A stretch of DNA of 64,000 bases from Natronosalvus vescus (GTDB taxonomy: Archaea > Halobacteriota > Halobacteria > Halobacteriales > Natrialbaceae): NCBI RefSeq assembly GCF_023973145.1, contig NZ_CP099546.1:1426001-1490000 (forward strand). The letters are read 5' to 3'. Below are positions 9,054 to 38,408 of the stretch, piece by piece. Every line of letters begins with the position of its first letter. Within the stretch, counting starts at the first letter, position 1. Below the pieces are notes generated by a model. That model did no database searches. It was not told where the DNA came from and saw nothing but the letters and a program-made list of their open reading frames with translations. The translations under genes were made by a program, and so were the position numbers.

Positions 9054-11813
9054 CTACTCGAGCAACCGCTTCAATCGATCCAGTTCTGTGAGCGCCTCGA
9101 CGGGAGTGAGACGGCCCAGATCCAACGCTCGTAACTCTGCGGCGACGTCGCGCGGGTCGTCACCGCCATCCGAACTCACCGGCAGAGGATGGGGCTGGCT
9201 CGAGTCGGTATCCGGTGACTGATCACCGCCTGAGCCGTCGGCGTTCCCGGAAGCCAGTTCTCTCGCCCGTTCGACGACCGGTTCAGGCACGCCAGCGGCC
9301 GTCGCCACCTCGACACCGTAGGAGCCCTGGGCCGCACCTGGGACGATTTCGTGATCGAAGACGACCTCACCATCTTCCTGGGTCGTCTCGAAGTGGCGCG
9401 CGAACGCCGCGTCGAGTTCGTTCGCAAGTTCAGTCAGCGGATGGTGATGAGTCGCAAACAGCGTGAGTGCGCCAACCTCGTCGTGGATGAACTCGGTGAT
9501 CGCCCGGGCGATGGCGAGGCCGTCGGCCGTCGACGTCCCCCGACCGACTTCGTCGAGCAGAACGAGCGAGCGGCCGTCGGCTTCCCGCAAAATCGTCGCG
9601 AGCTCGTCCATTTCCACCATGAACGTCGAGCGGCCGCCGGCGATATCGTCGCTGGCCCCGACGCGGGTGAAGAGCCGGTCGAACGGTGTCAGTGCGACTC
9701 GACAAGCGGGGACGAAACTCCCCACCTGCGCCAGCAGGACGATCTGGGCGACCTGGCGCATGTACGTCGACTTGCCGGACATGTTTGGCCCGGTGATGAT
9801 CGCCAGGCGATTGTCGGAATCGAACCGGCCGTCGTTCGGGACGAAGGAGTCCTGCGTTCGCTCCACGACGGGGTGGCGACCGCCCTCGATCTCGAGGCGG
9901 GCGTCGCCGTCGTCACGAGCCCGAACGTCGGGCCTGCAGTAGTCGCGTTCGGCCGCCACGGTTGCCAGCGAACACAGCGCGTCGAGGGTTCCGAGCGCGT
10001 CGGCGAGTGACTGTACCCGCGTCACCTCCTCGGCGACCTCGCGGCGAACCGTACAGAAGATCTCGTACTCGCGTCGATCCGCACGACCCTCGGCACCGAT
10101 GATCTCTTCCTCGCGGCGTTTGAGTTCCGGCGTCACGAACCGCTCCGACCGCTTGAGCGTCTGGCGACGCTGATAGTCGTCGGGAACGGCCTCGAGGTTC
10201 GGGTTCGTGACCTCGATGTAGTAGCCGTGTACCGAGTTGTAGCCGACTTTTAGCGACTCGATTCCGGTGCGTTCGCATTCCTCGGCCTCGAGGTCGTCGA
10301 TCCACTGTTTGCCGTTTCTGGCGGTCTCGCGCAACGAATCGAGGTCGTCGTCGTAGCCGTCTGCGATGATCTCACCTTCGGTGATCTCGTGGGGCGGGTC
10401 GGTGACGATCGCCCGGTCGATCAGGCGACGGACGTCCTCGAGCGGGTCGAGCGCCTCACGAATACGGGTCAGGCGATCGCAGTCGACACCATCGATTGCG
10501 TCCCGTATCGCGGGGACGGTGGCGAGGGTGTCGCGCAACGAGCGCAGGTCGCGGGCGTTGGCGCGTTCTCGAGAGATGCGCCCGATCAATCGCTCGAGGT
10601 CGTACACGCCCCGAAGCGCCTCTTGAATCGAATCCCTGGTTCGGGGATCCTGGGTCAATGACTCGACGGCGTCGAGGCGGTCGTCGATTCGATCGGGTTC
10701 GAGCAACGGTCGCCGTAGCCAGTCTCTGAGTGTCCGGCCGCCGAGGGCGCTCTCGGTTTCGTCGAGCACGTCCACGAGCGTCGCCTCCTCCCGGCCGTGG
10801 ACGGCGCGCGGTTCGAATAACTCGAGGCTGCGGACGGCGACGGCGTCGAGCAGCAGGTATTCCCGGGAATCGTACCGACGAAGGCGGGTCAGGTACTCGA
10901 GGCGGGTGCGTTCGGTTTCCGTCGCGTCGGCTGTCCCGTTCAGGTGCTCCCTCTCGACACCGTCCGAATTGTCCGTCTGGGTCATTTCGGTGGACGCCCC
11001 CTCGCCGTCTCCGCTGACTCCGCCGCGGACGTACTCCGCGTACGCCAGAATCGCCCCACAGGCCCGTATCTCCGCGTCGCTCGCGACCAGCGACTCCGGA
11101 TTGCCGAAGTACGACCGCAGGATTTCCGTGGCCGCCTCGAGGTCGAACGCCGCCGGTGAAAACGGCGTCACCATACATCGTTCGGGGGCGAGGTCTGCGG
11201 GTGCGTCCGGCCCGACAACGGCCTCCGATGGGGTAAATCGGCTGACTTCGTCGGCGATGCGGTCGGGGGTCGTCGCACTGGTGGTCAGAAAGTCACCGGT
11301 CGAGACGTCGAGCAAGGCGAGGGCGATGTCCGCATCTGGATCGCCGCCGGGTTCGTCGGTCGCTCCAGATCCGTCACCCGCAGCGATCGCTGCGACGAAG
11401 TTGTTGTCGTCGCTCGAGAGCAGTTCGTCTTCGGTGAGCGTCCCTGGGGTAACGACGCGCGTAACAGCCCGTTCGACGACGCCGGCCGATTCGCCTGGTT
11501 CTTCGACCTGATCGGCGATGGCGACCCGGTAGCCCGCCTCGAGCAGTTCCTCGATGTAAGAGGCGGCGTTGTCGACGGGGACGCCAGTCATCGGGTACTC
11601 GCCGGTCGAGTCCTCCCGGCTGGTGAGGGTCAACTCGAGTAGTCGGGCGGTCGTTTCGGCGGCACCACAGAAGGTCTCGTAGAAGTCACCGACCTGAAAG
11701 AGAACGATGGCGTCGTCGTAGCGAGCACAGAGGTCGTGATACTGGGCCATCATCGGCGTGAGTTCCTCGCGCCGCTCGGACATCACCGATGGGGGGCCAA
11801 GCGCGGGATCCAT
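9054..11813 (-). CDS. mutS: DNA mismatch repair protein MutS
   Basis: This 919-residue MutS recognises base mismatches and small loops and signals repair. The N-terminal mismatch domain has [10 protein letters not shown], the Phe-x-Glu wedge. The middle holds connector, lever and clamp regions, including [15 protein letters not shown] and an acidic Ser/Asp/Glu insertion around 260-300. The C-terminal ABC-type ATPase has Walker [16 protein letters not shown] (about 670-685) and Walker [18 protein letters not shown] (about 746-762). The tail [18 protein letters not shown] is the usual dimerisation helix. The ATG at 11813 is chosen over a GTG at 11834 because haloarchaeal MutS proteins begin MD.ALGPP and a TATTTTGG box lies about 30 nt upstream. 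No mutL is adjacent in this window. Confidence 0.95.
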
Positions 11814-11947
11814 ATTCAAACCCGACGCTTCCACGCCAAAATACCTGCTGGGTTCGGGTCACGGACGGATAGTTTCTCGAGTTTCACTATCCGGACAAAC
11901 GGACAAAACATATACTTGATGACTTCATATGGCCAACTAGCTTTCCC

Positions 11948-13666
11948 ATGCGTTCGTCCACACGCGCCGGTCATTTCGTCGGTTTCGTGGTCGCCATGGT
12001 GGTCTGTTCATTGGCTGTCGCCGGGACAGGGACAGCCGTCGCTCTCGTGGACACCTCGAGCGATCAGACGGGCGAGGTGGACGACGCGGGCTCGAGTAGC
12101 CTGCTCGAAGTCAGTGGCCTCGTGCTCGACGACGATCTGGGTGACACGGTGAACGACACGACGAACGACACTGATGACGCAGTGAACGATACCGAAGACA
12201 CCGTCAACGAGACCACGGACGATACTGAGGACGCCGTTAACGATACCGAAGACGCCATCAACGAGACCACGGACGATACCGAGGACGCCGTCAACGAGAC
12301 CACGGACGATACCGAAGACGCCGTCAACGAGACCACAGACGATACCGAAGACGCCATCAACGAGACCACGGACGATACCGAGGACGCCGTCAACGAGACC
12401 ACGGACGATACCGAAGACGCCGTCAACGAGACCACGGACGATACCGAAGACGCCGTCAACGAGACCACAGACGATACCGAAGACGCCGTCAACGAGACCA
12501 GTGAGACCCTCGAGGAAACGACAGACTCACTCGCGGGGACGACGGGATCACTCGAGGAAACGGCGGACGAGACGACCGACATGGTCGATGACACCGTTGG
12601 GACGGTCGGCGACGCGGTCGAAGAAGCGTCTGATGAAACCACTGAGACGATCGATGATACCGTCGAGACGGTCGACGATACGGTGGACGATACCGGCGAA
12701 ACCCTCGAGGAAACGACAACGACACTCTCGGACACGACGAACACCGTCCTCGGGTCGACGGATATGAACGCCACGGTACGAACGGAATCAGAACTGGCCG
12801 ACCTCGAGGCGACCCTCGAGGCGAACGTCACCACTGAGGAGGGAACGGAACCCGATCTCGAGGGTGCTTTCGCCGACGATGAAACGGCAAGCGGACCACT
12901 CGGTATCAGTACTCCGGAACCGTCCTCGAGCACACAGACCGCTGTCAACGGGATCCTCGCCGGGTTGCTCGGTGCCGTGGCCGTCTCGAGTATGGGTGTC
13001 GGAGTCGCCGGTGCCGGTGCTGGTGCTGGTGCGGGAGCCACCGGAGCCGGAGCAGGAGCGGCCGGAAGCACGGTCGCCAGCTGGACTGGTGCCTCGCAGC
13101 TTCGACGCTGGTGGAATCTCCTCCGTGACGCCATTTCGGTTCCATTGGCGGCCCTGTTCAGATACAGTCGCTACGACGACTCCGACCCGCTCGAGAACGA
13201 CAGACGGAAGGAGATATTCGACGCGGTGACGGCCGAACCTGGACTGTACCTTTCTGAAGTGAGCGATCACAGTGACGTCCCGCTCTCGACGGTACGCCAC
13301 CACGTTCGCATCCTCGAGGAGGAGAACATCGTCACCTCGATCAAAGTCGACGGGAAACGCCGATACTTCCCGATCGACGCCGACGACGTCGAACTCCACG
13401 CCGCCCTCGCCGAACCGACCCGCAGACGGTTGCTCGAGGAACTGGCGACGCTCGGACAGGCGCCCAACGGCCAACTCGCGGACGCGCTCGACCGCGATCC
13501 GAGTACGATCTCACACCATCTCTCGAAACTCGAGGAATCGGGGCTCGTCGTCCGCGAGCGAGAGGGGCGATCGGTCGTCAACGAACTGTCGCCAGCAGCC
13601 ACCACCGCGTTGCTCGATGCGGAAGCGAGCCAGCCACGGCCACAGCCGGTGCCGGCGGACGACTGA
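11948..13666 (+). CDS. Membrane-anchored tandem winged-helix regulator with repetitive ectodomain
   Basis: This 572-residue protein has an N-terminal hydrophobic signal/anchor (residues 10-33) and an acidic Thr/Asn/Asp region (about 60-310). Its core is an 11-residue repeat of the type EDAVNETTDDT, encoded by a 33-bp DNA repeat. A hydrophobic Gly/Ala-rich segment follows (about 331-375). The cytoplasmic end (about 415-555) has two winged-helix units: LSEVSDHSDVPLSTVRHHVR and GQLADALDRDPSTISHHLSK with REREGRSVVNEL. Thirteen N-D/E-T sequons fall in the repeat zone, so the outside part may be heavily N-glycosylated. It looks like a one-component regulator that senses at the envelope and binds DNA beneath the membrane. 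A shorter soluble paralogue is encoded at 36047-36577. The ligand and target genes are unknown. Confidence 0.8.
   Translation: MRSSTRAGHFVGFVVAMVVCSLAVAGTGTAVALVDTSSDQTGEVDDAGSSSLLEVSGLVLDDDLGDTVNDTTNDTDDAVNDTEDTVNETTDDTEDAVNDTEDAINETTDDTEDAVNETTDDTEDAVNETTDDTEDAINETTDDTEDAVNETTDDTEDAVNETTDDTEDAVNETTDDTEDAVNETSETLEETTDSLAGTTGSLEETADETTDMVDDTVGTVGDAVEEASDETTETIDDTVETVDDTVDDTGETLEETTTTLSDTTNTVLGSTDMNATVRTESELADLEATLEANVTTEEGTEPDLEGAFADDETASGPLGISTPEPSSSTQTAVNGILAGLLGAVAVSSMGVGVAGAGAGAGAGATGAGAGAAGSTVASWTGASQLRRWWNLLRDAISVPLAALFRYSRYDDSDPLENDRRKEIFDAVTAEPGLYLSEVSDHSDVPLSTVRHHVRILEEENIVTSIKVDGKRRYFPIDADDVELHAALAEPTRRRLLEELATLGQAPNGQLADALDRDPSTISHHLSKLEESGLVVREREGRSVVNELSPAATTALLDAEASQPRPQPVPADD
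12185..12490 (+). repeat. 33-bp in-frame tandem repeats
   Basis: About nine near-identical 33-bp units (GAAGACGCCGTCAACGAGAC plus CACGGACGATACC, with minor ATC/GTC and GAG/GAA variants) encode the 11-residue EDAVNETTDDT repeat of the membrane-tethered regulator. High nucleotide identity implies recent expansion or ongoing homogenisation, so the copy number is probably variable between strains. Confidence 0.85.
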
Positions 13667-13876: not shown

Positions 13877-16363
13877 GTGGAACTGATTATCACGGAGAAA
13901 GACAACGCCGCGAGACGCATTGCCGACATTCTGAGTGGTGAGTCCGCGAACGCGACCCGTGAAAACGGCGTGAACGTCTACGAGTGGGGCGGCAAGCGCT
14001 GTGTCGGACTCTCCGGACACGTCGTCGGAGTCGACTTCCCGCCGGAGTACTCCGACTGGCGTGACGTCGAACCCGTCGAACTCGTCGACGCGTCGATCGA
14101 GAAGACGGCGACGAAAGAGAACATCGTCGCGACCTTGCGCATTCTGTCCCGGCAGGCCGAACTGGTGACCATCGCGACTGACTACGATCGCGAAGGGGAA
14201 CTCATTGGCAAGGAGGCCTACGAGATCGTCAGGGACGTCAACGAGGACGTGCCGATCAACCGCGTCCGGTTCTCCTCGATCACCCAAAACGAGGTGCAGA
14301 ACGCGTTCGCCGAACCCGACGAGATCGACTTCGATCTGGCCGCCGCCGGCGAGGCCCGCCAGATCATCGACCTGGTCTGGGGGGCAGCCCTCACCCGATT
14401 TCTCTCGCTGTCGTCGGGGCAACTCGGCAACGACTTCATCTCCGTCGGACGGGTGCAGAGCCCGACCCTGAAGCTGATCGTCGACCGCGAGCGCGAGATC
14501 GAGGCGTTCGATCCCGAAGACTACTGGGAGCTGTTCGCCGACCTCGTGAAGGACGACGCGCCGTTCGAGGCCCAGTACTTCTACCTGGACGAGGACGACA
14601 ACGAAGCCGAACGCGTCTGGGACGAGTCGGCCGCGGAGTCGGCCTACGAGACGCTCTCGAGTGCGGATTCGGCGACGGTGACGTCGGTCAACGGGCGAAC
14701 CCGAACGGATACGCCGCCGACGCCCTTCAACACGACCCAGTTCATCCGGGCGGCGAGCGCGATCGGTTTCTCGGCCCAGCGGGGAATGTCGATCGCGGAG
14801 GATCTCTACACCGCCGGCTACATCACCTACCCGCGGACGGACAACACCGTCTACCCGGACGACCTCGACCCCGAGGAACTGGTCGACTCCTTTGTCGGCC
14901 ACCCCGTCCTGGGTGAGTCTGCGGAGTCACTGCTCGAGGCCGACGAAGACCTCGTACCCACCGAGGGTGACGAGGAGACGACCGACCACCCCCCGATTCA
15001 TCCGACCGGCGAGATACCGGCCCGCGGAAACGACGTCAACGAGGACGAGTGGCGTGTGTACGAACTCGTCGTCAGGCGCTACTTCGCGACGGTCGCCGAA
15101 CCGGCCGTCTGGGAACATCTCAAGGTGGTCGCCGAAGCCGAGGGCTGTCTGCTCAAGGCCAACGGCAAGCGCCTCGTCGAGGCCGGCTACCACGACGTCT
15201 ACCCGTACTTCAACACCTCGGAGAACTACGTCCCCGCGGTCGACGAGGGCGAAGAACTCGCCGTCGACGACGTTGACCTTGAGGCCAAACAGACCCAGCC
15301 ACCGCGCCGGTACGGCCAGTCCAGGCTGATCGAGACGATGGAGGAACTGGGAATCGGAACGAAATCGACCCGCCACAACACCCTCGAGAAACTGTACGAT
15401 CGAGGGTACATCGAGAGCGATCCGCCGCGGCCGACACAGCTGGCGATGGCGGTCGTCGACGCGGCCGAAAACTACGCCGATCGGGTCGTCAGCGAGGAGA
15501 TGACCGCCCAGCTCGAGGCCGACATGGACGCCATCGCGACGGGTGAGGCGACCCTCGAGGACGTCACCGACGAGTCCCGGGAGATGCTCGAGGCCGTGTT
15601 CGAACAGCTCGAGGAGTCCCGTGAGGAGGTCGGCGACCACCTGCGCAAGTCGCTCAAAGACGACAAGCGCCTCGGCCCCTGTCCGGAGTGCGGCGAGGAC
15701 TTGCTCGTCCGCCGGAGCCGGTACGGCTCGTACTTCATCGGCTGTGACGGTTATCCGGACTGTGAGAACACGCTCCCCCTGCCATCGACGGGCAAGCCGC
15801 TCATCCTCGAGGAGACCTGTGACGATCACGATCTCCACGAGGTGAAGATGCTCGCGGGGCGACAGACGTTCGTCCACGGTTGTCCACTCTGTAAGGCCGA
15901 GGATGCCGGCGAGGGGCCGGTGCTGGGAGCCTGCCCGGATTGTGGGGAGGAACACGGTGGCGAACTGGCGATCAAAACCCTCCAGAGCGGGTCGCGCCTC
16001 GTCGGCTGTACTCGGTACCCCGACTGTGAGTACTCCCTGCCGTTGCCCCGCCGCGGGGATATCGAGGTCACCGAAGAGGTGTGTGACGAACACGACCTCC
16101 CCGAACTCGTCATCCACAGCGGGGACGAGCCGTGGGAACTGGGGTGTCCCATCTGTAACTACCGGGAGTTCCAGGCCCGGGAGGCCGACAGCGGTTCGGC
16201 CCTCGAGTCCATCGACGGCATCGGGGTGAAGACGGTCGAAAAGCTCGAGGCCGCCGGAATCGAATCCCTCGACGATCTCACCGATGCCGACCCCGAGACG
16301 ATCGCCGCTTCGGTCGACGGCGTGAGTGCTGACCGCGTCCGATCCTGGCAGGCGAAGGCGTGA
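13877..16363 (+). CDS. topA: DNA topoisomerase I (type IA)
   Basis: This 828-residue enzyme relaxes negative supercoils by single-strand passage. The TOPRIM domain starts at once (ELIITEKDNAARRIADIL) and has TDYDREGELIG. The cleavage domain has FNTTQFIRAASAIGFSAQRG and the catalytic Tyr318 in GYITYPRTDNT. The C-terminus has zinc-finger modules (CPECGEDLLVRR with CDGYPDC, then CPLCKAED, CPDCGEEHGG, CTRYPDC, CPICNY) and ends in a helix-hairpin-helix DNA-binding segment (IDGIGVKTVEKLEAAGIESL). It starts with GTG, supported by a strong GGAGGTG site and by the TOPRIM motif beginning at residue 2. It is apparently monocistronic. Confidence 0.95.
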   Translation: MELIITEKDNAARRIADILSGESANATRENGVNVYEWGGKRCVGLSGHVVGVDFPPEYSDWRDVEPVELVDASIEKTATKENIVATLRILSRQAELVTIATDYDREGELIGKEAYEIVRDVNEDVPINRVRFSSITQNEVQNAFAEPDEIDFDLAAAGEARQIIDLVWGAALTRFLSLSSGQLGNDFISVGRVQSPTLKLIVDREREIEAFDPEDYWELFADLVKDDAPFEAQYFYLDEDDNEAERVWDESAAESAYETLSSADSATVTSVNGRTRTDTPPTPFNTTQFIRAASAIGFSAQRGMSIAEDLYTAGYITYPRTDNTVYPDDLDPEELVDSFVGHPVLGESAESLLEADEDLVPTEGDEETTDHPPIHPTGEIPARGNDVNEDEWRVYELVVRRYFATVAEPAVWEHLKVVAEAEGCLLKANGKRLVEAGYHDVYPYFNTSENYVPAVDEGEELAVDDVDLEAKQTQPPRRYGQSRLIETMEELGIGTKSTRHNTLEKLYDRGYIESDPPRPTQLAMAVVDAAENYADRVVSEEMTAQLEADMDAIATGEATLEDVTDESREMLEAVFEQLEESREEVGDHLRKSLKDDKRLGPCPECGEDLLVRRSRYGSYFIGCDGYPDCENTLPLPSTGKPLILEETCDDHDLHEVKMLAGRQTFVHGCPLCKAEDAGEGPVLGACPDCGEEHGGELAIKTLQSGSRLVGCTRYPDCEYSLPLPRRGDIEVTEEVCDEHDLPELVIHSGDEPWELGCPICNYREFQAREADSGSALESIDGIGVKTVEKLEAAGIESLDDLTDADPETIAASVDGVSADRVRSWQAKA

Positions 16364-16773
16364 ACGAGAGCTGACCGGAACCCTCGAGCTGGTAGCATGG
16401 GCACCGGGTGTCGGTCACAGTGCACTGTTCACCGGAGAATCTGTACTGTGCACCGTACATTCCCTCCCATCCGTTCTACATCGCTCACCATCGCCCTCTC
16501 CCATTTGTTCTGCATCGCACACCGTCGACGATCCTGTGGATTTCGACTGATGGTGCTCGCTTTTCGTCGGCGAAACAGTCCTAATCGGGTCGCTCGAGCC
16601 GATATCACCTTCGACGCATGTATCTCTCCTGAACGGTATTGACGACTTCTCTCCCGCGCGATCTCGATGTTCTTAGAACTGACGTCATCAGGGATAGAAT
16701 TAACTTGTTTCACACGGATGCACAACCAGTTGTAAACCGTGCTGGAACGGACACGGTTTGCGTCTATCCATCT
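16364..16773. other. Intergenic region upstream of the HEAT/propeller gene
   Basis: About 410 bp without a credible gene. It holds a TGCAC-rich patch (CAGTGCACTG near 16417 and TGTGCACC near 16447) and a TATA-like TTGTAAAC about 45 nt before the next start. I saw no tRNA, terminator or repeat family member. Confidence 0.5.
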
Positions 16774-19700
16774 ATGCCACGTAACGACCCTTCGGACGCA
16801 GATAGGCCCGCTCTCGGTGAGGCCGGCGGCATCGAGGTCACCGTCGGAATCGATCAACTCGAGGTATTTCTCTCGGCTGACGACCCAGAGGTCAGGGAGT
16901 ACGCAGCCAGCACGCTCGCGACGGAGGCAGCCGAACGACCCGGGGACGTTCGGTCGGCCGTCCCGGCCCTGATCGACCGCCTCGAGGACGACGCTGCCAT
17001 ACGATCGCAGGCGACGGCTGCCCTGGCTGCCGTCGGTCGGTCGCACCCGTCCGCGATTCAGGACGGCGTCCCGGCGTTGACCGACCGACTCGCGGGATCG
17101 GCGACGGTGCGAGCCGATGCCGTCGAAGCAATCAGTGCCGTCGCCGCCGACGATCCGCTCGCAATCGCCGAATCGGTGGAGCCGCTGACGGCGTACGTGA
17201 CCGACGACGACCCTGCGGTTTGTCAGCGGGCGACGGCGGCGCTGGCGGCGGTCGCCCGGGAGAGCCCCGAGATCGTCGCTCCCGTCATCACGGATGTAGC
17301 CGCGGCAACCGACCACGACGACCTCGTCGTCCGCGCCAATACCGTCGAGACGCTCGCGACCATCGTCGAGGCCCACCCGGACGTCCTCGCTGGCGAAGAA
17401 ACCGTCGCGGGCCAGCTGCTCGATCGACTCGAGGACGATCCGGCAATTCGAGCCGACGCGATGGCCGCTATTCGAGCCAGCGCGATCGAGAACCCGGACG
17501 ATCCGGCGCTCGAGGTCGATCCAATCGCTGGACGCCTCAGTGATGAACAGGACGACGTTCGGATCGACGCTGCCGCAACGCTGGAGGCGCTTGCAGCGGT
17601 CGACACAGTTCGGGTACAGACAGGCGTCGAGCCACTTCGACGAGCGCTCTCGGACAGTCCGGCTGTTCGAGCATCGGCGATCAGCGCCATCAGGGCCGTC
17701 GCCGATGCGCTGCCGGAAACCGACGTCGACCCGCTCGTGTCGACCGTTCCAGCCGTGACCGATCGCCTCGAGGACGTTCAGCCACCAGTTCGATTGGATG
17801 CTGCTGCAACGCTCGATGCGATCGGTGGGGTACGTCCTGCGGCGCTTCGAGAGGCGATCGATTTACTCGCGGTTCGCCTCCAGGACGGCGACGGAGAAAC
17901 GCGAGAACACGCGGCGTCTGCGCTTGCAGCCGTTGCCCACGAGCATCCGACCGACGTTGCGCGTGTCGTCCCCGACCTCGCAGGGCGACTCGAGGACGAA
18001 AAACTGACCATTAGAGCCGATAGCGCACGCGCGATTGCGGCGGTCGCGCCGACAAAACCCGCGGCCGTTCGAACGGTCGTACCGGCGCTGACGTCGAGTC
18101 TCGATACGGCCGACGACACCGTCCGGCGTGCGTCTGCGAGCGCGCTGGGAGCCGTCGCGCTCGACGGTGCCGACGACCGAGACGCCGTGGTGGAACACCT
18201 GGCCCACCTCGAAGCCGGTGATTCGGGTTTGGACTCGGAGCTGGACGTGCCACGTCTCGAGGCAGCGAGCGATCACGTCAGCGACGGCTGGCAACAGGGT
18301 CACGCCGCCCGGTCACTGGCTGAAATCGCCGAGAGACAGATTGCCGGCGTCCACCCGGCCGTCAGATCCCTGCGCAATCGCCTCGAGAGCGATTCGGTGA
18401 CCGTCAGACGTGCTGCCTCGCGAGATCTGGTCGGCGTCGCCAGCCAGCGTCCGCGAGACGTCCGCTGGGCGGTCGAACCGATCGCCGACAGGCTCGACGA
18501 CGACGACGCGAGCGTTCGGAACAACGCCGCGATCGCGCTCGGCCGACTGGCGGAGACGTATCCCGACGCCGTCCGGGATGCGCTCGAGGCGCTGTTCGTC
18601 TCCGTGGACGATCCCGACAGGACGGTACGGACGAACGTCATCAGCGCGCTCGCATCGGTTGGCACGACGGATGCGTCCGTCCGTTGCCCAGCGTTCTCGT
18701 TAGCGGTGGCCGAAACGGGCGCTGACGACCCGGCGATTCGAACCGCCGCACTCGAGGCGCTAGCAGTGTTACGCCCGGAGACGGGTGACGAAACGAAGGC
18801 CGCCGTAGACGCCCTTCTCGATCGTTTCGGCTCGCCGACGTGTACGCCAGCCGAACGAAGTAGCGCTCTCACCACCCTCGAGACACAGCTGTCGGCTTCT
18901 CCGGAGACGGATCCGAGCCCGATGGACGTGGTTCTCGAGGAGCTATCGGCAGACGACGAAAACCGAGCACGGACGGTCACGCAGGCGCTGGCCAACGTCT
19001 TGCAGATGAACCCGACCATGATCGACTCGATCGCCGCCGGGGCAATCGATCGGCTCGAAACGGCTGATCCGGCCCTTCGTCGGGCTCTCATCGGAGCGAT
19101 CACCCGGGGCGGCGAAACGACGACCCGACCTATCAGTGCCGTGCTGGCCGAATACGTTCGGAACGGCGAGACGAACGCAGCGGCTGATATCGCATACCTT
19201 GCTGTGGTCGCCCCAGCAGACGTCGAACGGGGGGACGACGAGGTGTCGTCGCTGCTCGAGCACGATACGGAAATCGTTCGTGGCTATGCGACGCTCGCGC
19301 TCGCAGCCGTTGCCGTCGTCGGCGATGATGACGGAACCACGCTTCAGGGTCAACTCGAGACCGTCGACGATCGACTGCTCGACGTGGCATCGCTGGTCGT
19401 CGGCGGCGAAACACCCAGTCACACTGACGCAATCAACAATCAGCTGTCTGGACTCGGCCGTCGCGTCGAAAGCGATCCCTGGGCTGGTGGGCTAGCCATC
19501 CTTGGACTCTCGATACTCGCGGATGCCACTGAAGAGCTCCGACCGACGGCGTTTTCGAAGCTCGCAACCGGTCTCGAAGCCGATTCAACGGTGGTTCGGG
19601 CGACGACGGCGAGCGTCCTCGCCACGATGGCCGACGACGACACGAACGGGTTCGAGAGGGTCGTTTCTGCAATGGTTCGCGCCCTCGAGGATCCCGACGA

Positions 19701-21111
19701 TGGCGTTCGGGCGAACGCGAGTCAGGCGCTGGCGACGCTCGCGGCCAGTGGGGCGGATTGCCTCGCGGACGCTGAGTGTGACGTCCGCGAATCCTTGCTC
19801 GAACGCCGGTCGGATCCGGAGTATCACGTTCGGACGCAGGCATGTCGCGCTCTCGGCGCACTCGGATCCGGATCGCCAGCATCGGTTGCCCCGCTCGTCG
19901 ACGACCCGGTTCCCTCGGTCGGAGAGGCAGCAACGGCGGCACGTGCCCGTCTTTCAGGCGAGTCGGCGGCCGATACCGAACACACGGAGTGGCGCGATTG
20001 GCGGATGGAACGGGCCGATGCCGCTGGGACGGGTGCCGTCCCCAGTGGTGATCCGCTCTCCGAGACGGTCGACTTCCAGTGGGGATTCGACACCACCGAA
20101 CTCGCCTCGACGATTCCGACCATCGCTGGCGACTCCATCTACCTCGGCAGCGACGATGGCCGTGTCATTGCACTGGCACTCGAGGACGGTTCCGAGCGCT
20201 GGAGCTATCAGACGGGTGCAGCGGTTTCGACGTCACCGGCAGTGGTCGACGACCGGGTGTACACGGTCAACGCCGATGGAATGGTGTACGCACTCGAGCA
20301 GGAAAACGGCGAACGCCGGTGGCAGGTTCGCCTCGACAGTTCGGTTTCGGTTGCACCGGTTGTCGTCGACGGCGTCGTCTACGTTGGCACCGACGATGGA
20401 ACGGTGCAGGCGATCGACGCCGACACCGGAACCGCCGACTGGTCGGTCGAACCCGAAGAGCCGACGGCCGTCACGAGCCTTGCCGTCGCCAACGACGTCG
20501 TGGTGGGATCGGCAGCAGGCGACGTCCGAGCGCTCTCGAGAGCCGATGGTGAGGGGCGATGGCACCGCTCACTCGAGAGCGTGGCAGATCAGGCGGCGAG
20601 TATCGTCAGCGTGAGCATCGACACGGGGACGGGAGCCGTTATCGCTGCGTGCGAACGCGGCACGGTCGTCGCACTCGAGTGGGACGACGGCACGTCCCGG
20701 TGGCGCTTCGACACGGGAGCACGTCTCGAGACGGGGCCAGCCGTCGCACACGGAAGTGCGTACGTCGCCAGCACCGATCTAAGCGTGTATGCGATCGATC
20801 TGCGTTCGGGGGCCGAACGGTTCCGGTTCGATACCGGCGGCTCGACGCCGACGGCACCGGCGGTGATCGACGGCGTCTGCTGTGTCGGTACCGACGACGG
20901 AGTACTCTACGCGCTCGATGCCGCCGACGGAACGGCTCGCTGGCGGTACGATACGGACGCTTCCACGCCGATCGAGGCCGTGGCCGTTGCAAGCGGACTC
21001 GTTTGTACGGTCGAGGCGAACAGTGTCGCCGTCCTCGGTGACGAGAATGCCTCGTGGGCCGATCGGATCGGCTTTTCGGGACTGTTTACGCGGTTCGGGA
21101 CGGCAGAGTAA
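16774..21111 (+). CDS. Giant HEAT-repeat protein with C-terminal PQQ-type beta-propeller
   Basis: This 1445-residue acidic protein has no signal peptide or membrane helix, so it is probably cytoplasmic. Residues about 30-1070 are a long run of HEAT/PBS-lyase-like units, each with motifs such as DDPEVREYAASTLATEAAE, AAIRSQATAALAAVGR and DSVTVRRAASRDLVGVA. From about residue 1101 it switches to a propeller with eight W-rich blades, for example IYLGSDDGRVIALALEDGSE then RWSYQTGAAVSTSPAVV. The start at 16774 (MPRNDPSD) is chosen because upstream sequence is not HEAT-like. HEAT arrays are protein-binding scaffolds. Propellers of this type bind proteins or cofactors and in bacteria are usually periplasmic (BamB, quinoproteins), so a cytoplasmic fusion is unusual. 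No enzymatic residues are evident; a scaffold role is inferred. Confidence 0.8.
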   Translation: MPRNDPSDADRPALGEAGGIEVTVGIDQLEVFLSADDPEVREYAASTLATEAAERPGDVRSAVPALIDRLEDDAAIRSQATAALAAVGRSHPSAIQDGVPALTDRLAGSATVRADAVEAISAVAADDPLAIAESVEPLTAYVTDDDPAVCQRATAALAAVARESPEIVAPVITDVAAATDHDDLVVRANTVETLATIVEAHPDVLAGEETVAGQLLDRLEDDPAIRADAMAAIRASAIENPDDPALEVDPIAGRLSDEQDDVRIDAAATLEALAAVDTVRVQTGVEPLRRALSDSPAVRASAISAIRAVADALPETDVDPLVSTVPAVTDRLEDVQPPVRLDAAATLDAIGGVRPAALREAIDLLAVRLQDGDGETREHAASALAAVAHEHPTDVARVVPDLAGRLEDEKLTIRADSARAIAAVAPTKPAAVRTVVPALTSSLDTADDTVRRASASALGAVALDGADDRDAVVEHLAHLEAGDSGLDSELDVPRLEAASDHVSDGWQQGHAARSLAEIAERQIAGVHPAVRSLRNRLESDSVTVRRAASRDLVGVASQRPRDVRWAVEPIADRLDDDDASVRNNAAIALGRLAETYPDAVRDALEALFVSVDDPDRTVRTNVISALASVGTTDASVRCPAFSLAVAETGADDPAIRTAALEALAVLRPETGDETKAAVDALLDRFGSPTCTPAERSSALTTLETQLSASPETDPSPMDVVLEELSADDENRARTVTQALANVLQMNPTMIDSIAAGAIDRLETADPALRRALIGAITRGGETTTRPISAVLAEYVRNGETNAAADIAYLAVVAPADVERGDDEVSSLLEHDTEIVRGYATLALAAVAVVGDDDGTTLQGQLETVDDRLLDVASLVVGGETPSHTDAINNQLSGLGRRVESDPWAGGLAILGLSILADATEELRPTAFSKLATGLEADSTVVRATTASVLATMADDDTNGFERVVSAMVRALEDPDDGVRANASQALATLAASGADCLADAECDVRESLLERRSDPEYHVRTQACRALGALGSGSPASVAPLVDDPVPSVGEAATAARARLSGESAADTEHTEWRDWRMERADAAGTGAVPSGDPLSETVDFQWGFDTTELASTIPTIAGDSIYLGSDDGRVIALALEDGSERWSYQTGAAVSTSPAVVDDRVYTVNADGMVYALEQENGERRWQVRLDSSVSVAPVVVDGVVYVGTDDGTVQAIDADTGTADWSVEPEEPTAVTSLAVANDVVVGSAAGDVRALSRADGEGRWHRSLESVADQAASIVSVSIDTGTGAVIAACERGTVVALEWDDGTSRWRFDTGARLETGPAVAHGSAYVASTDLSVYAIDLRSGAERFRFDTGGSTPTAPAVIDGVCCVGTDDGVLYALDAADGTARWRYDTDASTPIEAVAVASGLVCTVEANSVAVLGDENASWADRIGFSGLFTRFGTAE

Positions 21112-32696: not shown

Positions 32697-35600
32697 TCAG
32701 ATATCCTCTGCGACGACAGTCACGGTTCGGTCGGTGCCCGCAAACGTCGTCCACTCGCGGTCGGTGAGCGTTCCATCGTCGTCTGTGCCCCTCGAGACGG
32801 CGATTGGGCCGAAGGTGTACTCGCCCGTCTCGAGGAGGTCGTCGGGGGCTTCGGCGAAGTGGGTGAGATCCTCGTAGACCGATTGGGTCTCCTCCAGCCC
32901 GAAGTAGACGTGCGTGCCGCCGCCGTCGGCGGCTGCCGTCGCCTCGGCGTCGCCGAACGCTTCGTCGACCGTCCAGTTCTCCGGCACCGTGTCGCGTACG
33001 ATGACGGGTTCGGTCGCCTGGACGTCGAGTTCCGTCCGGTTGGTCTGTCCCCCGGTAAAGATCGAACCGGAATCATTGCGCTCCCCCTCGACGGCGAACG
33101 TCGATCCTTGGTCGTGATCTCCGATCGTCCGGACGACTTCGCCGTCGACGAACCGTCGTTGTTCCATGCCGAACGCGTTGACGAGAACGGTGAACCCGAA
33201 GTACGAGAGGACGTAGTTCTTCAGTCCAAACGGGTGGAGTTCTTGCTGGCTGGCCGGCGGCAACAGGCCGCCGATGGCGTGGATTCCTCGCCACCCCTCG
33301 GTATCGGTGAAGATCGAACCACAACTCACCAGGCCGTCAGTCGTTCCGGCGACGGTTCCGCCGGACGTCTCGAACGCCTCCGCGTCGACCAGCGTCATCG
33401 GGGCGTCGTCCGCGTACGGATAGCCGAGCGGCGCGACTTTCCACGTCATTCGCTGGATCGGGCGCGTGTCGGTGAGCAACGGATGGTCGTCGGCTTTCTC
33501 CTCCAGGTGACTGACCCCGAACGTGTCGTCGACGACGTCGTCCGTCTCGACGTCGGGTGCCGTTTCCATCGCCGCAAGGAGGTGAAGGCCGGTGTCGGTC
33601 AGGACGAGGTTGCCGCCCGACTCGACGTAGTCGTCGATCGCCGCGACGTAGTTCGCAGGATCGTCGCCGCGGTCGTCGTGGGCGACCACGAGGTGATCGG
33701 CGTCGACGCCGGCCTCGGCGACCTCCGCTGGCGTCAGCGCGACCGTGGTGAGTAGTTCGTTTTCTGACTCGAGATCGTCGAAGAACGCGAGCGGCGTGAC
33801 CTCGTACTCCTCCTGCTCGAATCCGAGCGCCTCTCTAGGGTCTGGGTGTTCGGCCGTCGATTGGAGCGTCCCGACGTGGGCGTGGAGTTCCGTCGATTGA
33901 TCGGTCATCAGGCTCTCGACCTCGAGTGACCACTCGCCGCCGATCGGCTCTTTGACGACCATCGGCGGGATGTGGTGGTGGCCGTCGCCGTTGAACGTCG
34001 AGGGCCGGTACGATCGGATCTCGTTTCCGTGTGGATCCTGAAGGACGACGTCGACCAGGCCGTGCGGTGCGTGTGCGTGCACCGTCAGCGTGTGCAAGTC
34101 GTCGGCCACGTCGAACGAAAGCGTCTCGGTGGACTCGGCGTCGACGATCAGTTCGTGTTCGGTGCTGGCGAGTTCGGTTCCGCCGCTATCGGTATCCCCG
34201 TCCTGCAGGAAGGAGAGGTCGTCCGACGACCGAGTGAGTTCGTCGGTCGTCACGTAGGCGATCTCCGTACCCTCGCCGTCGCGGGTGACGACCTCGGAGT
34301 CGACGTCGCGGAGGGCGTAGTCCGTCATCGTCTTCATCGCCGCAATGTAGCCCGTCACCCACTTGTCGGCCAACTCGGGATTGTACACGTTCCCACCGAT
34401 CATGTGGCTGTACGCCATCTCGAACGCCATCGTCGTCACGTCGAGGCCGCCCCGATCTTCGCTCGCGCCCATGAAGCCGATGAGTCCGCCGGTGATGGTG
34501 TAGCCGATCGTGTCCCAGATGGTCGAGTAATCGTAGGCCGTCTCGGGCAACACCGGCATGAGGACGTCGGGGTTGAAATTACCGGTGGCTTCCTCCTGAA
34601 CCTCGGCGAGTGTCTCCCAGTCGTCCATCGCCTCCTCGAGGTTCGCCTCCAGAGTCCGGTTCATCTCGTAGAGGTCGTGAAACTCGTCCTGGGTGTACTC
34701 GATCTGGTTGATGAGACCCAGGATGAAATCCGAGTTCCAGAACATCGCGTGGAGGTCGGCACCGTGGGTGAGATTCTCGTATCCCCGGAAGTGCTCGACG
34801 ACGCCCATCGCGTCCGGCACCTTGTCGATGATGTCGTGTGGATTCTCCGTCGCCCAGCGTTCTTCGTCCGGCTCACCAGGGTGGTGGGACGGATCGATCC
34901 AGCCGACGGTGGGGTATTGCCGGTTCGTGTCGTACACTTCGGCGTTCCCACGCTCGTGCAGCGGTGCCGCCGGAACCCGGGGATGGGTTGCGTCGGGCCC
35001 GCCGGTTTGCCAGCCGCTATCGTATTGCGGATCGCGAGCCACCCAGCCGTCGGGATTACACGAGAGGATGATGAGCACGCAGTCGTCCAGCAGTCGTTCG
35101 AACTCCTGTTCACGACCCGTGAGAATTCGCTCGATGAAGCGATAACACGCCTCGGGGCCGGCCCGCTCGAGGCCGTGGATCGAAGCTTCGAACATCACCT
35201 TCTGACGGTTCTCGAACGCTTCGATGCCGCGAATCTCGTCGATGTCGTTCGTGATTTCGGCGACGTGGAGATCCTTCGGATCGTGTCGATCGGTGAGCTG
35301 GTTGTGGTGGCCGGGACTTGTTCCGAACTCGACGTCGTGGGGGTTCTCCGCGTCGGCGAGAGCGTAAAAATTGACCCTGTCAGCGTGCTCGGACTCGAGG
35401 TACTCCATCCCGCTGATCATCTGTTCGTAATCGATGAAATCGACGGCTCGGTGGGGAGCCGGGAAGACCCCGAGTGGATAGTGTCCCAGTCGCCAGAACG
35501 GGTTCGATCCTGGCGTGTAGCTCAACTCCTCGGCGGTTGGAATCTCGAGAACCTCCTCGACCGCCGTCGTCGTGAGTTGTGCGTACGCGGCGGGTGGATC

Positions 35601-35891
35601 CTCCAGGATCCAGTCGTCGTCGAGTTCCAGGTCGAGATCGAGGTCGAACAAATCGTCGAGACCCGATTCGTCTTCGAACCGAACCACCGTTGGGATGGGA
35701 TAGTCGCCCGGGGTGTGATTGACGACGTACTCGTACTCGGCGGTCAGCGTTCCGTCTTCGAGGTCGGCCGTCGCGTTGCCGGGCAGCGCGAGGACGCCAC
35801 CAGCCGCCGCCGAGAGCCGAACGAAGTCGCGCCGTGTGATCGGTACGTCGTCGAAATTCGCCTGAGAGAGGTCGTGATCGTGGTGTGTCAT
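32697..35891 (-). CDS. Secreted M14 zinc carboxypeptidase with accessory C-terminal domain
   Basis: This 1064-residue exoenzyme has a Tat signal (ITRRDFVRLSAAAGGVLALPG). The M14 peptidase domain (about 130-560) shows the zinc ligands His239 and Glu242 in EASIHGLERAG and a His in GADLHAMFW (about 381). Substrate-binding features include SCNPDGWVARD and EVYDTNRQYP. After a jelly-roll/PPC-like region (about 600-700) and a glutamine-amidotransferase-like stretch follows the last 125 residues. These are about 70% identical by eye to the end of the large S8 protease at 38565-41291 (GGQTNRTELDV, VRDTVPENWTVDEAFGD, HVYFGLEE, LTHFAEAP, DREWTTFAGTDRTVTVVAED). It cleaves C-terminal residues of extracellular peptides. 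A TTTATAAT box and a 22-bp shared motif lie upstream. Confidence 0.88.
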   Translation of the reverse strand: MTHHDHDLSQANFDDVPITRRDFVRLSAAAGGVLALPGNATADLEDGTLTAEYEYVVNHTPGDYPIPTVVRFEDESGLDDLFDLDLDLELDDDWILEDPPAAYAQLTTTAVEEVLEIPTAEELSYTPGSNPFWRLGHYPLGVFPAPHRAVDFIDYEQMISGMEYLESEHADRVNFYALADAENPHDVEFGTSPGHHNQLTDRHDPKDLHVAEITNDIDEIRGIEAFENRQKVMFEASIHGLERAGPEACYRFIERILTGREQEFERLLDDCVLIILSCNPDGWVARDPQYDSGWQTGGPDATHPRVPAAPLHERGNAEVYDTNRQYPTVGWIDPSHHPGEPDEERWATENPHDIIDKVPDAMGVVEHFRGYENLTHGADLHAMFWNSDFILGLINQIEYTQDEFHDLYEMNRTLEANLEEAMDDWETLAEVQEEATGNFNPDVLMPVLPETAYDYSTIWDTIGYTITGGLIGFMGASEDRGGLDVTTMAFEMAYSHMIGGNVYNPELADKWVTGYIAAMKTMTDYALRDVDSEVVTRDGEGTEIAYVTTDELTRSSDDLSFLQDGDTDSGGTELASTEHELIVDAESTETLSFDVADDLHTLTVHAHAPHGLVDVVLQDPHGNEIRSYRPSTFNGDGHHHIPPMVVKEPIGGEWSLEVESLMTDQSTELHAHVGTLQSTAEHPDPREALGFEQEEYEVTPLAFFDDLESENELLTTVALTPAEVAEAGVDADHLVVAHDDRGDDPANYVAAIDDYVESGGNLVLTDTGLHLLAAMETAPDVETDDVVDDTFGVSHLEEKADDHPLLTDTRPIQRMTWKVAPLGYPYADDAPMTLVDAEAFETSGGTVAGTTDGLVSCGSIFTDTEGWRGIHAIGGLLPPASQQELHPFGLKNYVLSYFGFTVLVNAFGMEQRRFVDGEVVRTIGDHDQGSTFAVEGERNDSGSIFTGGQTNRTELDVQATEPVIVRDTVPENWTVDEAFGDAEATAAADGGGTHVYFGLEETQSVYEDLTHFAEAPDDLLETGEYTFGPIAVSRGTDDDGTLTDREWTTFAGTDRTVTVVAEDI

Positions 35892-36046: not shown

Positions 36047-36577
36047 TCAGGCGACTTCGGCCTCGATGAGTGACGCGGTCGCCTCTGTCTCCAGATGTAG
36101 ATCGAAACCGGAACCGATCGACTCCATCGCGGGATCGAGTTCGTTGATGATCGAGCGTCCGTCGCGCTCTCGACGGACGAACCCGGCGTCCTCGAGCGTT
36201 ACGAGGTGGTGTGAAATCGTGCTGGAATCGCAGTCGAGTGCGGTAGCGAGTTCGACGTTCGGGGAGGGGCCGAGCGCCGCCTGTGCCTCGAGTACTCGCC
36301 GTTTTGCCGGTTCGAAGAGCATGCCTCGCCGTTCAACGTCGTCGTCGTCGAACGGGAAGTACCGTCGTTTTCCACAGACCGTTACCGACTGAATCACGTT
36401 TTTGTCTTCCAGAACGCGCACGTGATGGCGCACGGTCGAGAGTGGAACGCCACTCTCGGTGCTTACCGCGGAGAGACAGCGGCCAGGGTCGGTGTGGATC
36501 GTCTCGCAAATCGTTCGTCTCCGATCGTTCTCGAACAGACAGGAATCGCCGTGTGTGCGGTGTCCGTATGCCGACAT
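36047..36577 (-). CDS. Soluble tandem winged-helix (ArsR-like) regulator
   Basis: This 176-residue DNA-binding protein has two winged-helix modules: RRTICETIHTDPGRCLSAVS with GVPLSTVRHHVRVLEDKNVI, and LATALDCDSSTISHHLVTLE with GFVRRERDGRSIINELDP. It is closely related to the cytoplasmic half of the membrane-tethered regulator at 11948-13666 (shared STVRHHVR-LE, KRRYFPxD, STISHHL-LE, RExxGRS) but has no transmembrane part. The ATG at 36577 is chosen over a GTG two codons earlier. Lying between the M14 and S8 protease genes, it is a candidate regulator of them. That link is by position only. Confidence 0.8.
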   Translation of the reverse strand: MSAYGHRTHGDSCLFENDRRRTICETIHTDPGRCLSAVSTESGVPLSTVRHHVRVLEDKNVIQSVTVCGKRRYFPFDDDDVERRGMLFEPAKRRVLEAQAALGPSPNVELATALDCDSSTISHHLVTLEDAGFVRRERDGRSIINELDPAMESIGSGFDLHLETEATASLIEAEVA

Positions 36578-36953
36578 TGTCACGGTATCTGGGCGGGGGA
36601 TCGGTGACCGTGTGCGGTGTCGGCTACTGTCGACGATGCTACCGTCCGAGTGCGACCGAACCCGTGGCGATGCAGCCTCGAGTTTTCACCACGAACCGGG
36701 ACGGGTCGTCCCGCCCTGATCTCAGCACCTAGCTGTCGGTCTTCGTGAACGAATAGGATCTCGCGTGCCATTCGGCCGTGACTATCAGCGTTGACTGTAT
36801 ATCTATACCCTCTATAATTTTTGGAATACAATATAAAACGTCAAAATGTTCAGAATATAGCTACCATAAACCCATTAGATATTTGATTCATTGGCCGACG
36901 TTAGGATATGGTTTGTTTTTGAAATGTTGGTGGGCCGGAAGGTGGAGTCCCCG
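36578..36953. other. Gene-free gap with AT-rich patch
   Basis: About 376 bp. The part from about 36785 to 36915 is markedly AT-rich (TATATCTATACCC, TCTATAATTTTTGG, CAATATAAAACG) in a GC-rich genome. It holds several TATA-like words on both strands but no credible gene. It separates the wHTH regulator (promoter side) from the 3' end of the S8 protease, so part of it is the regulator's promoter. Confidence 0.5.
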
Positions 36954-38408
36954 TCAGTCGAAGCCGAGCAGCTCTCCGGACTCGGCGGCCTTCACCGCCT
37001 CGAGCGCGTCGACGTACCCTGCACCGACGTTCGTGGCCGTATACTCGGCCGTTCCCACGGGATCCTCGAGGCCGGCCGTTGCGTCGGCGTCCGCCGTCGC
37101 CTCGAGCGTGGTGATCACGTCGATCGGGTCGGGTGCAACGCCGTGGTTCTCGATGTAGGCGTCGATGACGAGGGCAGCACAGCCGGCGGCGACCGGGTTG
37201 GACATGCTCGTCCCCGAGAGGAGGCCGTACCAGAGTTCGTCGTCCGAACCCAGCACCCACAGGGGCTGGACGGGATTGAGTGTACTCATCACGTCAGCAC
37301 CTTTCGCGGCGACCGCAGGCCGATTCAGCTCGAGCGGGCCGAGTTCGTCCTCGGGCACGCCACTGTACAGGTCGACCACGTTTTCGAGTGCCTGTTGCCG
37401 ATCGTGGTTGCCGTCTGCAGCCCCGCGAGAGGAGAAGTCCGTAACCGACTGATCGGCGTGGGTCGCCGCGACGCTCAGCGTATACGGTGCCTGCTTTCGC
37501 TGGCCGAGCGTGTCGTCTTCGGGGCCGTCGTTGCCTGCAGAGTACGTGACGAGGACGCCGGCCTCGGTTGCGTACCAGGTGGCGACGTTGAGGGGGTCGT
37601 ACGGATCGAAGTCGCCCGGTCCAGCGCCGTAGGAGTTCGAAGCGACGTGAATGTGGTGTTCACCCGAGTGCTGGAGTCGGAGCAGGTGGTCGTAGGCCGA
37701 GACGGCTTTCAGCACCGTCAGCGAGGCGTTGGCGGAGTACGACGTCAACGTGACGTCCGGAGCCATCCCCTTGTACTCGCCATCGCTGGCGGAGCCGTCG
37801 GCACCGACGCTGCCGGCACAGTGGGTGCCGTGTCCGACGTCGTCTGTGTTCACGAGGCCAGCGTCGATCCAGAGGTCGCCCTCCTCAGCGAGTGGATCGC
37901 CGGCCCAGTGCCAGTTGGCCTCGATGTTGTCCTGAAGGTCGGGGTGTGCGCCGTCGATGCCGGTGTCGATGACGGCGACGTGCGCGTTCTCGCCGGTGTA
38001 GGGGATTTCGAGCCCCGTTCCTTCTTGTACGTCTTTCGCTCGCGTATCGGGGCGGGCATCGTCGTGTTCCCACTCGAGTTCGTCGTTAGGGGAGATGCGT
38101 CGCACCTCGTCCCAGCCGGCGACTGTCTCGAGCTGTGTGCCGGTGAACAGGGCGTAACCGATGGGAAGGTGGTCGAAGCCGAGGAACCCTTCCACGAGGT
38201 CGAGGCCGGCGAGTAACTCGATGTCGTCGGTCGAGTCGAAGACGACCAGCGCTTCCTGGAGAACATCGGTCTCGAGATCCAGGGTGGCCGCGACCGTTCC
38301 CGATCCCGCGAGTGCGCCGACGCCGGTAGCGCCAACGAGCTGGAGGAATCGTCGTCTGTTCGATACGTCGGTGTTGGTGTCGGTGTTGGTGTCGGTGTTT
38401 CGTGTCAT
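36954..38408 (-). CDS. Halolysin-like S8 serine protease (subtilase)
   Basis: This 484-residue secreted subtilisin has a Tat signal (NRRRFLQLVGATGVGALAGS) after a TDTNTDTNTD repeat, and a propeptide with the inhibitor-I9-like run ALVVFDSTDDIELLAGLDLV. The catalytic triad is complete: Asp in HVAVIDTGIDGAHPD, His in VGHGTHCAGSVGADG, Asn in YSAGNDGPEDD and Ser in LLSGTSMSNPVAAGCA. It ends soon after the catalytic domain and lacks the accessory C-terminal domain found on its two protease neighbours. It would digest extracellular protein after Tat export in folded form. I did not find the 22-bp promoter motif upstream of this gene. Confidence 0.9.
   Translation of the reverse strand: MTRNTDTNTDTNTDVSNRRRFLQLVGATGVGALAGSGTVAATLDLETDVLQEALVVFDSTDDIELLAGLDLVEGFLGFDHLPIGYALFTGTQLETVAGWDEVRRISPNDELEWEHDDARPDTRAKDVQEGTGLEIPYTGENAHVAVIDTGIDGAHPDLQDNIEANWHWAGDPLAEEGDLWIDAGLVNTDDVGHGTHCAGSVGADGSASDGEYKGMAPDVTLTSYSANASLTVLKAVSAYDHLLRLQHSGEHHIHVASNSYGAGPGDFDPYDPLNVATWYATEAGVLVTYSAGNDGPEDDTLGQRKQAPYTLSVAATHADQSVTDFSSRGAADGNHDRQQALENVVDLYSGVPEDELGPLELNRPAVAAKGADVMSTLNPVQPLWVLGSDDELWYGLLSGTSMSNPVAAGCAALVIDAYIENHGVAPDPIDVITTLEATADADATAGLEDPVGTAEYTATNVGAGYVDALEAVKAAESGELLGFD

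Follow-up and report, generated by a model that had tools for sequence, protein, structure and literature searches.

Does a single haloarchaeal polypeptide connect the cell envelope with the DNA, and what would each of its parts contribute? The question is raised by a gene in the window, i.e., the whole 64,000-nt stretch of the Natronosalvus vescus contig NZ_CP099546.1 analyzed here. The original prediction described its product as an envelope-spanning transcription regulator with a repeat ectodomain full of N-glycosylation sequons, which would couple the outside environment directly to DNA binding. Our analyses favor, with a probability of roughly 0.7, a membrane-tethered one-component transcription regulator, with the following features.

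11948..13666, + strand: regulator ORF, 572 aa, reading signal, putative glyco-stalk, transmembrane (TM) segment and tandem winged helices (wHTH); exact coordinates; 74-77% identical orthologues in the genus
11972..12049, + strand: Sec-type signal / hydrophobic segment, aa 9-34; hydropathy 2.76, AlphaFold helix 6-25; same feature in 69 long-form members
12152..12502, + strand: array of 11- and 7-residue repeats carrying 13 N-[DE]-T sequons, aa 69-185; TRF and repeat analysis
12551..12739, + strand: predicted stalk helix, acidic and Thr-rich, aa 202-264; full-length AlphaFold model, pLDDT about 45-72; hydrophobic period 3.65
12929..12991, + strand: second hydrophobic (TM) segment with conserved GLLG core, aa 328-348; hydropathy 2.03, AlphaFold helix 328-348
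12992..13063, + strand: Gly/Ala-rich linker, aa 349-372; from sequence and low pLDDT; Gly/Ala-rich in many relatives
13091..13198, + strand: positively charged juxtamembrane helices and signature YSRYDDSDPLEN, aa 382-417; invariant residues, AlphaFold helices
13187..13372, + strand: winged helix 1, HTH_HVO_0163_N, aa 414-475; PF24266, E 1.6e-12, pLDDT >90
13388..13588, + strand: winged helix 2, ArsR/HTH_20-like, aa 481-547; PF12840, E 2.1e-21, closest folds SmtB and CzrA
36047..36583, - strand: soluble paralogue, tandem wHTH 58% identical, without signal, stalk and TM; sequence comparison and tree

Results

Gene neighborhood

The regulator gene is flanked by divergent mutS (9054-11834, - strand) and by topA (13877-16363, + strand). 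The upstream opposite-strand mutS is kept at 12 named Natrialbaceae loci (L039-L046, L048, L049, L051, and L052), and in the same comparison of relatives' loci the Natronosalvus locus is the sole one where topA adjoins the regulator gene. Among named relatives, that of Natronosalvus hydrolyticus comes closest, with 91% across the wHTH part. After topA lies a gene (16639-21111, + strand) for a 1490-aa protein, apparently composed of HEAT repeats and a PQQ-type propeller; this gene adjoins topA in N. hydrolyticus too (L038). A conserved Natrialbaceae element, CTGTCACG-AAACGGAAAAGCGTATTACG, was noticed in the upstream region (11848-11947 in the window, and upstream of L012, L016, L019, L039, L040, L045, L048, and L051), and is much weaker in the genus to which the window belongs; it is probably a core promoter, with BRE/TATA lying about 25-36 nt ahead of the ATG and an operator as a possible candidate.

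Signal segment and repeat stalk

The N-terminal segment possesses two Arg residues in its n-region and AxA sites inside and after the hydrophobic stretch, and the signal/anchor originally assigned to it is backed by hydropathy and AlphaFold. The array that follows contains exactly the 13 N-D/E-T sequons that had been counted (at residues 69, 73, 80, 87, 98, 105, 116, 127, 138, 149, 160, 171, and 182), and with two further stalk sequons, NAT274 and NVT293, 15 of the 16 stalk Asn residues lie in sequons. Shuffling residues 35-333 yielded 4.6 ± 1.7 sequons, with a maximum of 11 in 5000 shuffles versus 15 in the real protein. The description of the array as 11-residue repeats holds for eight full units of the form [VI]NETTDDTEDA, but the array is not purely made of 11-mers, as 7-residue VNDTEDT/A units are mixed in. 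Recent homogenization of the repeat DNA, also proposed earlier, is borne out: the eight 33-bp units differ at only 0-3 positions, and identical units recur in block order (TRF, 33 bp × 7.9 copies, 95%). L009 and L010, the nearest congeneric orthologues, fall short of the regulator by 82-92 aa and have no long array, and the array units have been re-homogenized in the N. vescus lineage. A hydrophobic period of 3.65 runs across residues 61-330, and AlphaFold models the array with very low confidence (pLDDT about 40).

The stalks of dereplicated relatives are hypervariable in length (143 to 1275 aa) and in sequence, and they are mostly acidic, Thr- or Ser-rich and poor in Lys/Arg. An 11-residue autocorrelation with z >3 was detected in 12 of the 30 dereplicated stalks, together with a hydrophobic period near 3.65 in several; since the 11-residue period recurs in these relatives, it is older than the present array. 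Some members (L026/L065, L074, and L068) have unrelated stalk repeats, Natrinema showing units of 15 residues (SDPSDTSDSPDD), or a stalk of about 1275 aa, as in Natronorubrum texcoconense. Pfam matches of the stalk to Apolipoprotein and ApoLp-III fell below the cut-off (39.1 vs. 90 and 30.7 vs. 36.3 bits) and were rejected as 11-residue periodicity only; matches to ZorA, Rad50 and similar proteins, likewise below the cut-off, reflect periodicity or composition.

Sequon enrichment across the family

In the 30 dereplicated relatives, 196 of 291 stalk Asn residues (67%) lie in sequons, and 27 of the 30 ectodomains have them. When each stalk was shuffled, 77.1 ± 7.4 N-x-[ST] motifs were expected, i.e., the observed 196 represent a 2.5-fold enrichment, whereas the reversed and spaced control patterns stayed at 1.0-1.1 ([ST]-x-N, 82 vs. 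77; N-x-x-[ST], 79 vs. 80 expected). Among further patterns, N-[ST] occurred 63 times vs. 80 expected and N-P-[ST] not once vs. 3.4 expected. The cytoplasmic halves of the same relatives contain 10 sequons vs. 15.4 expected, accounting for 9% of their Asn; counted over all long forms, the share is 68% (474/697) before the wHTH part and 7% (16/219) within it. Against a baseline of eight window proteins, of which the cytosolic ones have 0-14% and the three secreted ones only 5-22% of Asn in sequons, export alone does not account for the sequon richness of the stalk. Moreover, the genome encodes an AglB-like oligosaccharyltransferase (STT3/AglB homologue; STT3, PF02516, E 1.3e-20). Though indirect, this evidence strongly favors a stalk that lies outside and is N-glycosylated, and we infer that such modification would take place in vivo. 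The pattern also points to sequons being under selection in a transcription regulator, which is unusual.

Transmembrane segment and juxtamembrane region

A single later hydrophobic segment, as predicted, is backed by hydropathy and AlphaFold, although TM calls here combine hydropathy with AlphaFold helices instead of a dedicated TM predictor and are weak in part of the family. Residues G339, L340, and G342 of the segment are invariant in alignment A3. Its hydropathy in the long forms is only about 1.2-2.1, the segment being often Gly/Ala-rich, and DUF7343 regulators of the same genome reach 2.1-2.6. The charge distribution is asymmetric, with one Lys/Arg and 104 Asp/Glu in aa 35-333 and four Lys/Arg in aa 371-406; a Lys/Arg-poor stalk followed by Lys/Arg after the TM segment is consistent with the positive-inside rule and with a predicted single-pass topology. 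AlphaFold places juxtamembrane helices at 382-395 and 398-406, and within the YSRYDDSDPLEN signature the Y, S, R, D, D, P, and L residues are invariant in 48 sequences (alignment A2).

Tandem winged helices

The two winged helices recognized originally are confirmed by Pfam matches (PF24266 and PF12840) and by the AlphaFold fold, which for the wHTH pair exceeds a pLDDT of 90 (48 sequences in the alignment). The nearest solved folds are the single wHTH domains of SmtB, CzrA, and AntR, and the ArsR-type wHTH model NF033788 scores 88.8 bits on the regulator vs. a cut-off of 55. A Cys/His metal-ligand site is absent from the regulator, whose only Cys (C20) lies in the signal and which has no His after position 524. 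Identity as an ArsR/SmtB metalloregulator was thus rejected: the ArsR-type wHTH is present, but the metal ligands are missing, and we do not class the regulator as a metal sensor. Both recognition helices are strongly conserved, and the predicted wHTH pair would bind DNA.

Distribution, soluble paralogues and signal-only relatives

Similarity searches found relatives across the haloarchaea, and a family member (E <3e-38) occurs in about 64 of 293 sampled genomes of the order. Sequence searches collected 69 long-form members, all combining a signal, hypervariable stalk, TM segment, YSRYDDSDPLEN motif and paired wHTH, with class counts resting on an automatic choice of start sites. In a tree that set aside five members with unresolved N-termini, the family formed one clade versus the HVO_0163-type soluble proteins (support 100/100). 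The envelope-spanning topology with a DNA-binding cytoplasmic end and the sequon-rich ectodomain, i.e., the core of the original prediction, are well supported by this comparison across the family.

Four congeneric soluble paralogues, including the one at 36047-36583, form a clade (100/99) beside TM-bearing forms of the same genus (89/82), which points to a duplication after which the membrane part was lost. That a soluble paralogue retains this wHTH pair indicates that the domain pair stands alone, and loss or degeneration of the YSRYDDSDP motif in these paralogues ties the motif to the membrane-bound form. The paralogue in the window has genes for secreted subtilases (36954-38408 and 38565-41291) on one side and one for an M14-like Tat protein (32697-35891) on the other; with neighbor functions read from sequence, extracellular proteases are possible targets of its regulation.

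A subclade of about 16 members (L154-L158, L160-L163, L165-L167, L079, L088, L090, L097, and L159, of which L079 and L159, having a weak segment just before the motif, were moved here by hand) possesses a clean signal peptide and the conserved tandem wHTH but no second TM segment; hence, a naive topology puts their wHTH outside the cell. None of the 19 Asn residues in their linkers lies in a sequon. An NPLENVTRA sequon at helix 1 of the first wHTH in this subclade was considered as an extracytoplasmic sign and dropped, as TM-bearing Halostagnicola proteins have LENETR there.

Discussion

Demey et al. (2023; PMC10269533) have catalogued transmembrane transcription regulators (TTRs) as a class, and the regulator resembles them in joining a DNA-binding domain and a TM segment in one chain, single-pass forms being the commonest. 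It contains a recognizable DNA-binding domain and at least one predicted TM segment, and we regard it as a TTR with putative transcription control from the membrane. It differs in its C-terminal, cytoplasmic DNA-binding part and in its signal-led glyco-stalk, which is not described for TTRs in the part of that catalogue available to us. Two Haloferax volcanii proteins, HVO_1944 and HVO_0306, are annotated as 'probable transmembrane glycoprotein/HTH domain protein', with one AglB-dependent N-site found by mass spectrometry for the former and an O-glycopeptide candidate for the latter (PMC8241124). Compared by description, they share with the regulator Sec (SPI) processing and an HTH domain, with mass-spectrometric glycosylation on the Haloferax side, whereas HVO_1944 has one detected N-site and the regulator 15 sequons (PMC8241124). 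A scan with the motifs of the regulator family revealed no Haloferax locus, so the two proteins probably belong to another TTR family; their published glycopeptides nonetheless mean that a glycosylated transmembrane HTH protein as such was already known. Given this and the TTR class, the original idea is less new than implied.

Closer at hand, the same genome encodes DUF7345-TM-DUF7343 type regulators (L109, L110, and L112) that likewise have a signal, ectodomain, single TM segment and C-terminal wHTH, L112 even carrying its own NGNETT sequon repeat. Their TM segments are all stronger than that of the regulator, and L109, the one run on Pfam, has a folded DUF7345 ectodomain and one DUF7343 wHTH, unlike the regulator, which scored 15.8 vs. 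27.6 bits for DUF7343 and had no DUF7345 among the 25 families listed. ArnR/ArnR1 of Sulfolobus acidocaldarius are also membrane-bound archaeal one-component regulators with an HTH, but ArnR is built in the opposite order (N-terminal HTH, HAMP, sensor, two C-terminal TM segments, no glycosylated stalk; PMC6396743), which rules out membership. The soluble tandem-HTH proteins of the HVO_0163 type (PF24266) share the N-terminal wHTH family and the tandem order with the regulator, but they measure about 174 aa in many relatives, lack a membrane part and fall outside its clade; the one paper found to mention HVO_0163 describes an ArsR-type protein whose level rises under oxidative stress. The literature on haloarchaeal membrane-anchored wHTH regulators yielded no paper on the regulator family. 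What our comparisons add is an apparently separate family that combines a stalk both hypervariable and saturated with sequons, a weak Gly/Ala TM segment, a fixed juxtamembrane signature and tandem wHTH.

As a membrane-tethered regulator, the protein would have its N-terminal half exported by the signal sequence as an acidic stalk, N-glycosylated and possibly, being Thr-rich, O-glycosylated, between membrane and S-layer. Transfer would be stopped by a single, weak, Gly/Ala-rich TM helix, leaving the tandem winged helices in the cytoplasm, where they would bind DNA while held on the flexible Gly/Ala linker. The stalk would most likely act as a spacer and protected tether, and stalk clustering or envelope contact might change the state of the wHTH pair via the TM and YSRYDDSDPLEN segment; that a signal passes through the stalk at all is our guess. 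Against this main reading stand the weak TM segment and the signal-only subclade, and a search for an operator, a target gene and a ligand domain for the regulator found none.

It is possible, though unlikely, that the protein is a latent precursor from which rhomboid, S2P or SPP-type cleavage in the weak TM segment frees the tandem wHTH. The Gly-rich nature of that segment suits regulated intramembrane proteolysis, as do the soluble paralogue, in which a free wHTH unit is viable, and the protease repertoire of haloarchaea, which includes rhomboids, S2P and SPP, most of their substrates being still unknown (PMC9263693; PMC11985538). The genome has two strong and two weaker rhomboid homologues, but all 14 control genomes have rhomboids too, so their presence says little, and TTRs are known to act at the membrane without being released (PMC10269533).

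Somewhat harder to sustain is a constitutive surface glycoprotein stalk whose wHTH merely anchors DNA, e.g., tethering a chromosomal locus to the membrane, with no sensing. A low-complexity stalk that is hypervariable, rich in repeats and devoid of a ligand domain, and to whose array AlphaFold gives no structure, is what such an anchor might look like; the conserved recognition helices and juxtamembrane signature, however, fit a regulator at least as well. The converse, that the stalk is itself a sensor, in which glycosylation state or S-layer contact sets TM association or cleavage and thereby DNA binding, with expansion and contraction of the 33-bp repeats tuning its reach, we consider quite doubtful. 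Since stalk sequence is not conserved, a specific ligand is less likely, and the hypervariability and the very low AlphaFold confidence suit a spacer or shield no less than a ligand sensor. The coupling of salt, S-layer or glycosylation state to DNA binding, with repeat length tuning sensing, is speculation; if the stalk did sense, envelope glycosylation would have a one-component regulator as its reader.

Export of the whole protein, with the Gly/Ala-rich segment failing as stop-transfer and the wHTH pair extracytoplasmic (e.g., holding extracellular DNA), is improbable. The signal-only subclade and the marginal TM hydrophobicity speak for it, but the fall in sequon share from before to within the wHTH part of the long forms, the positive-inside charges, the soluble closest paralogues without signal, and the sequon-free linkers of the signal-only members themselves all point the other way. 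Next to negligible, and refuted for the family as a whole, is the notion that sequon richness is a by-product of the repeat unit and an Asn/Thr-rich composition: after the recent expansion of the regulator's own array, the 13 sequons in it do not count as independent, but distinct sequence contexts alone give 189 of 279 stalk Asn (68%) in sequons, and the non-repetitive relatives L018 (5 vs. 0.9 expected), L020 (3 vs. 0.4), and L022 (4 vs. 0.8) are enriched too.

The membrane-tethered reading has a specific bearing on haloarchaeal biology: conserved membrane-spanning regulators with two thirds of their stalk Asn in sequons are a concrete, testable candidate for reporting from the envelope, with its S-layer and variable N-glycosylation, to the genome.
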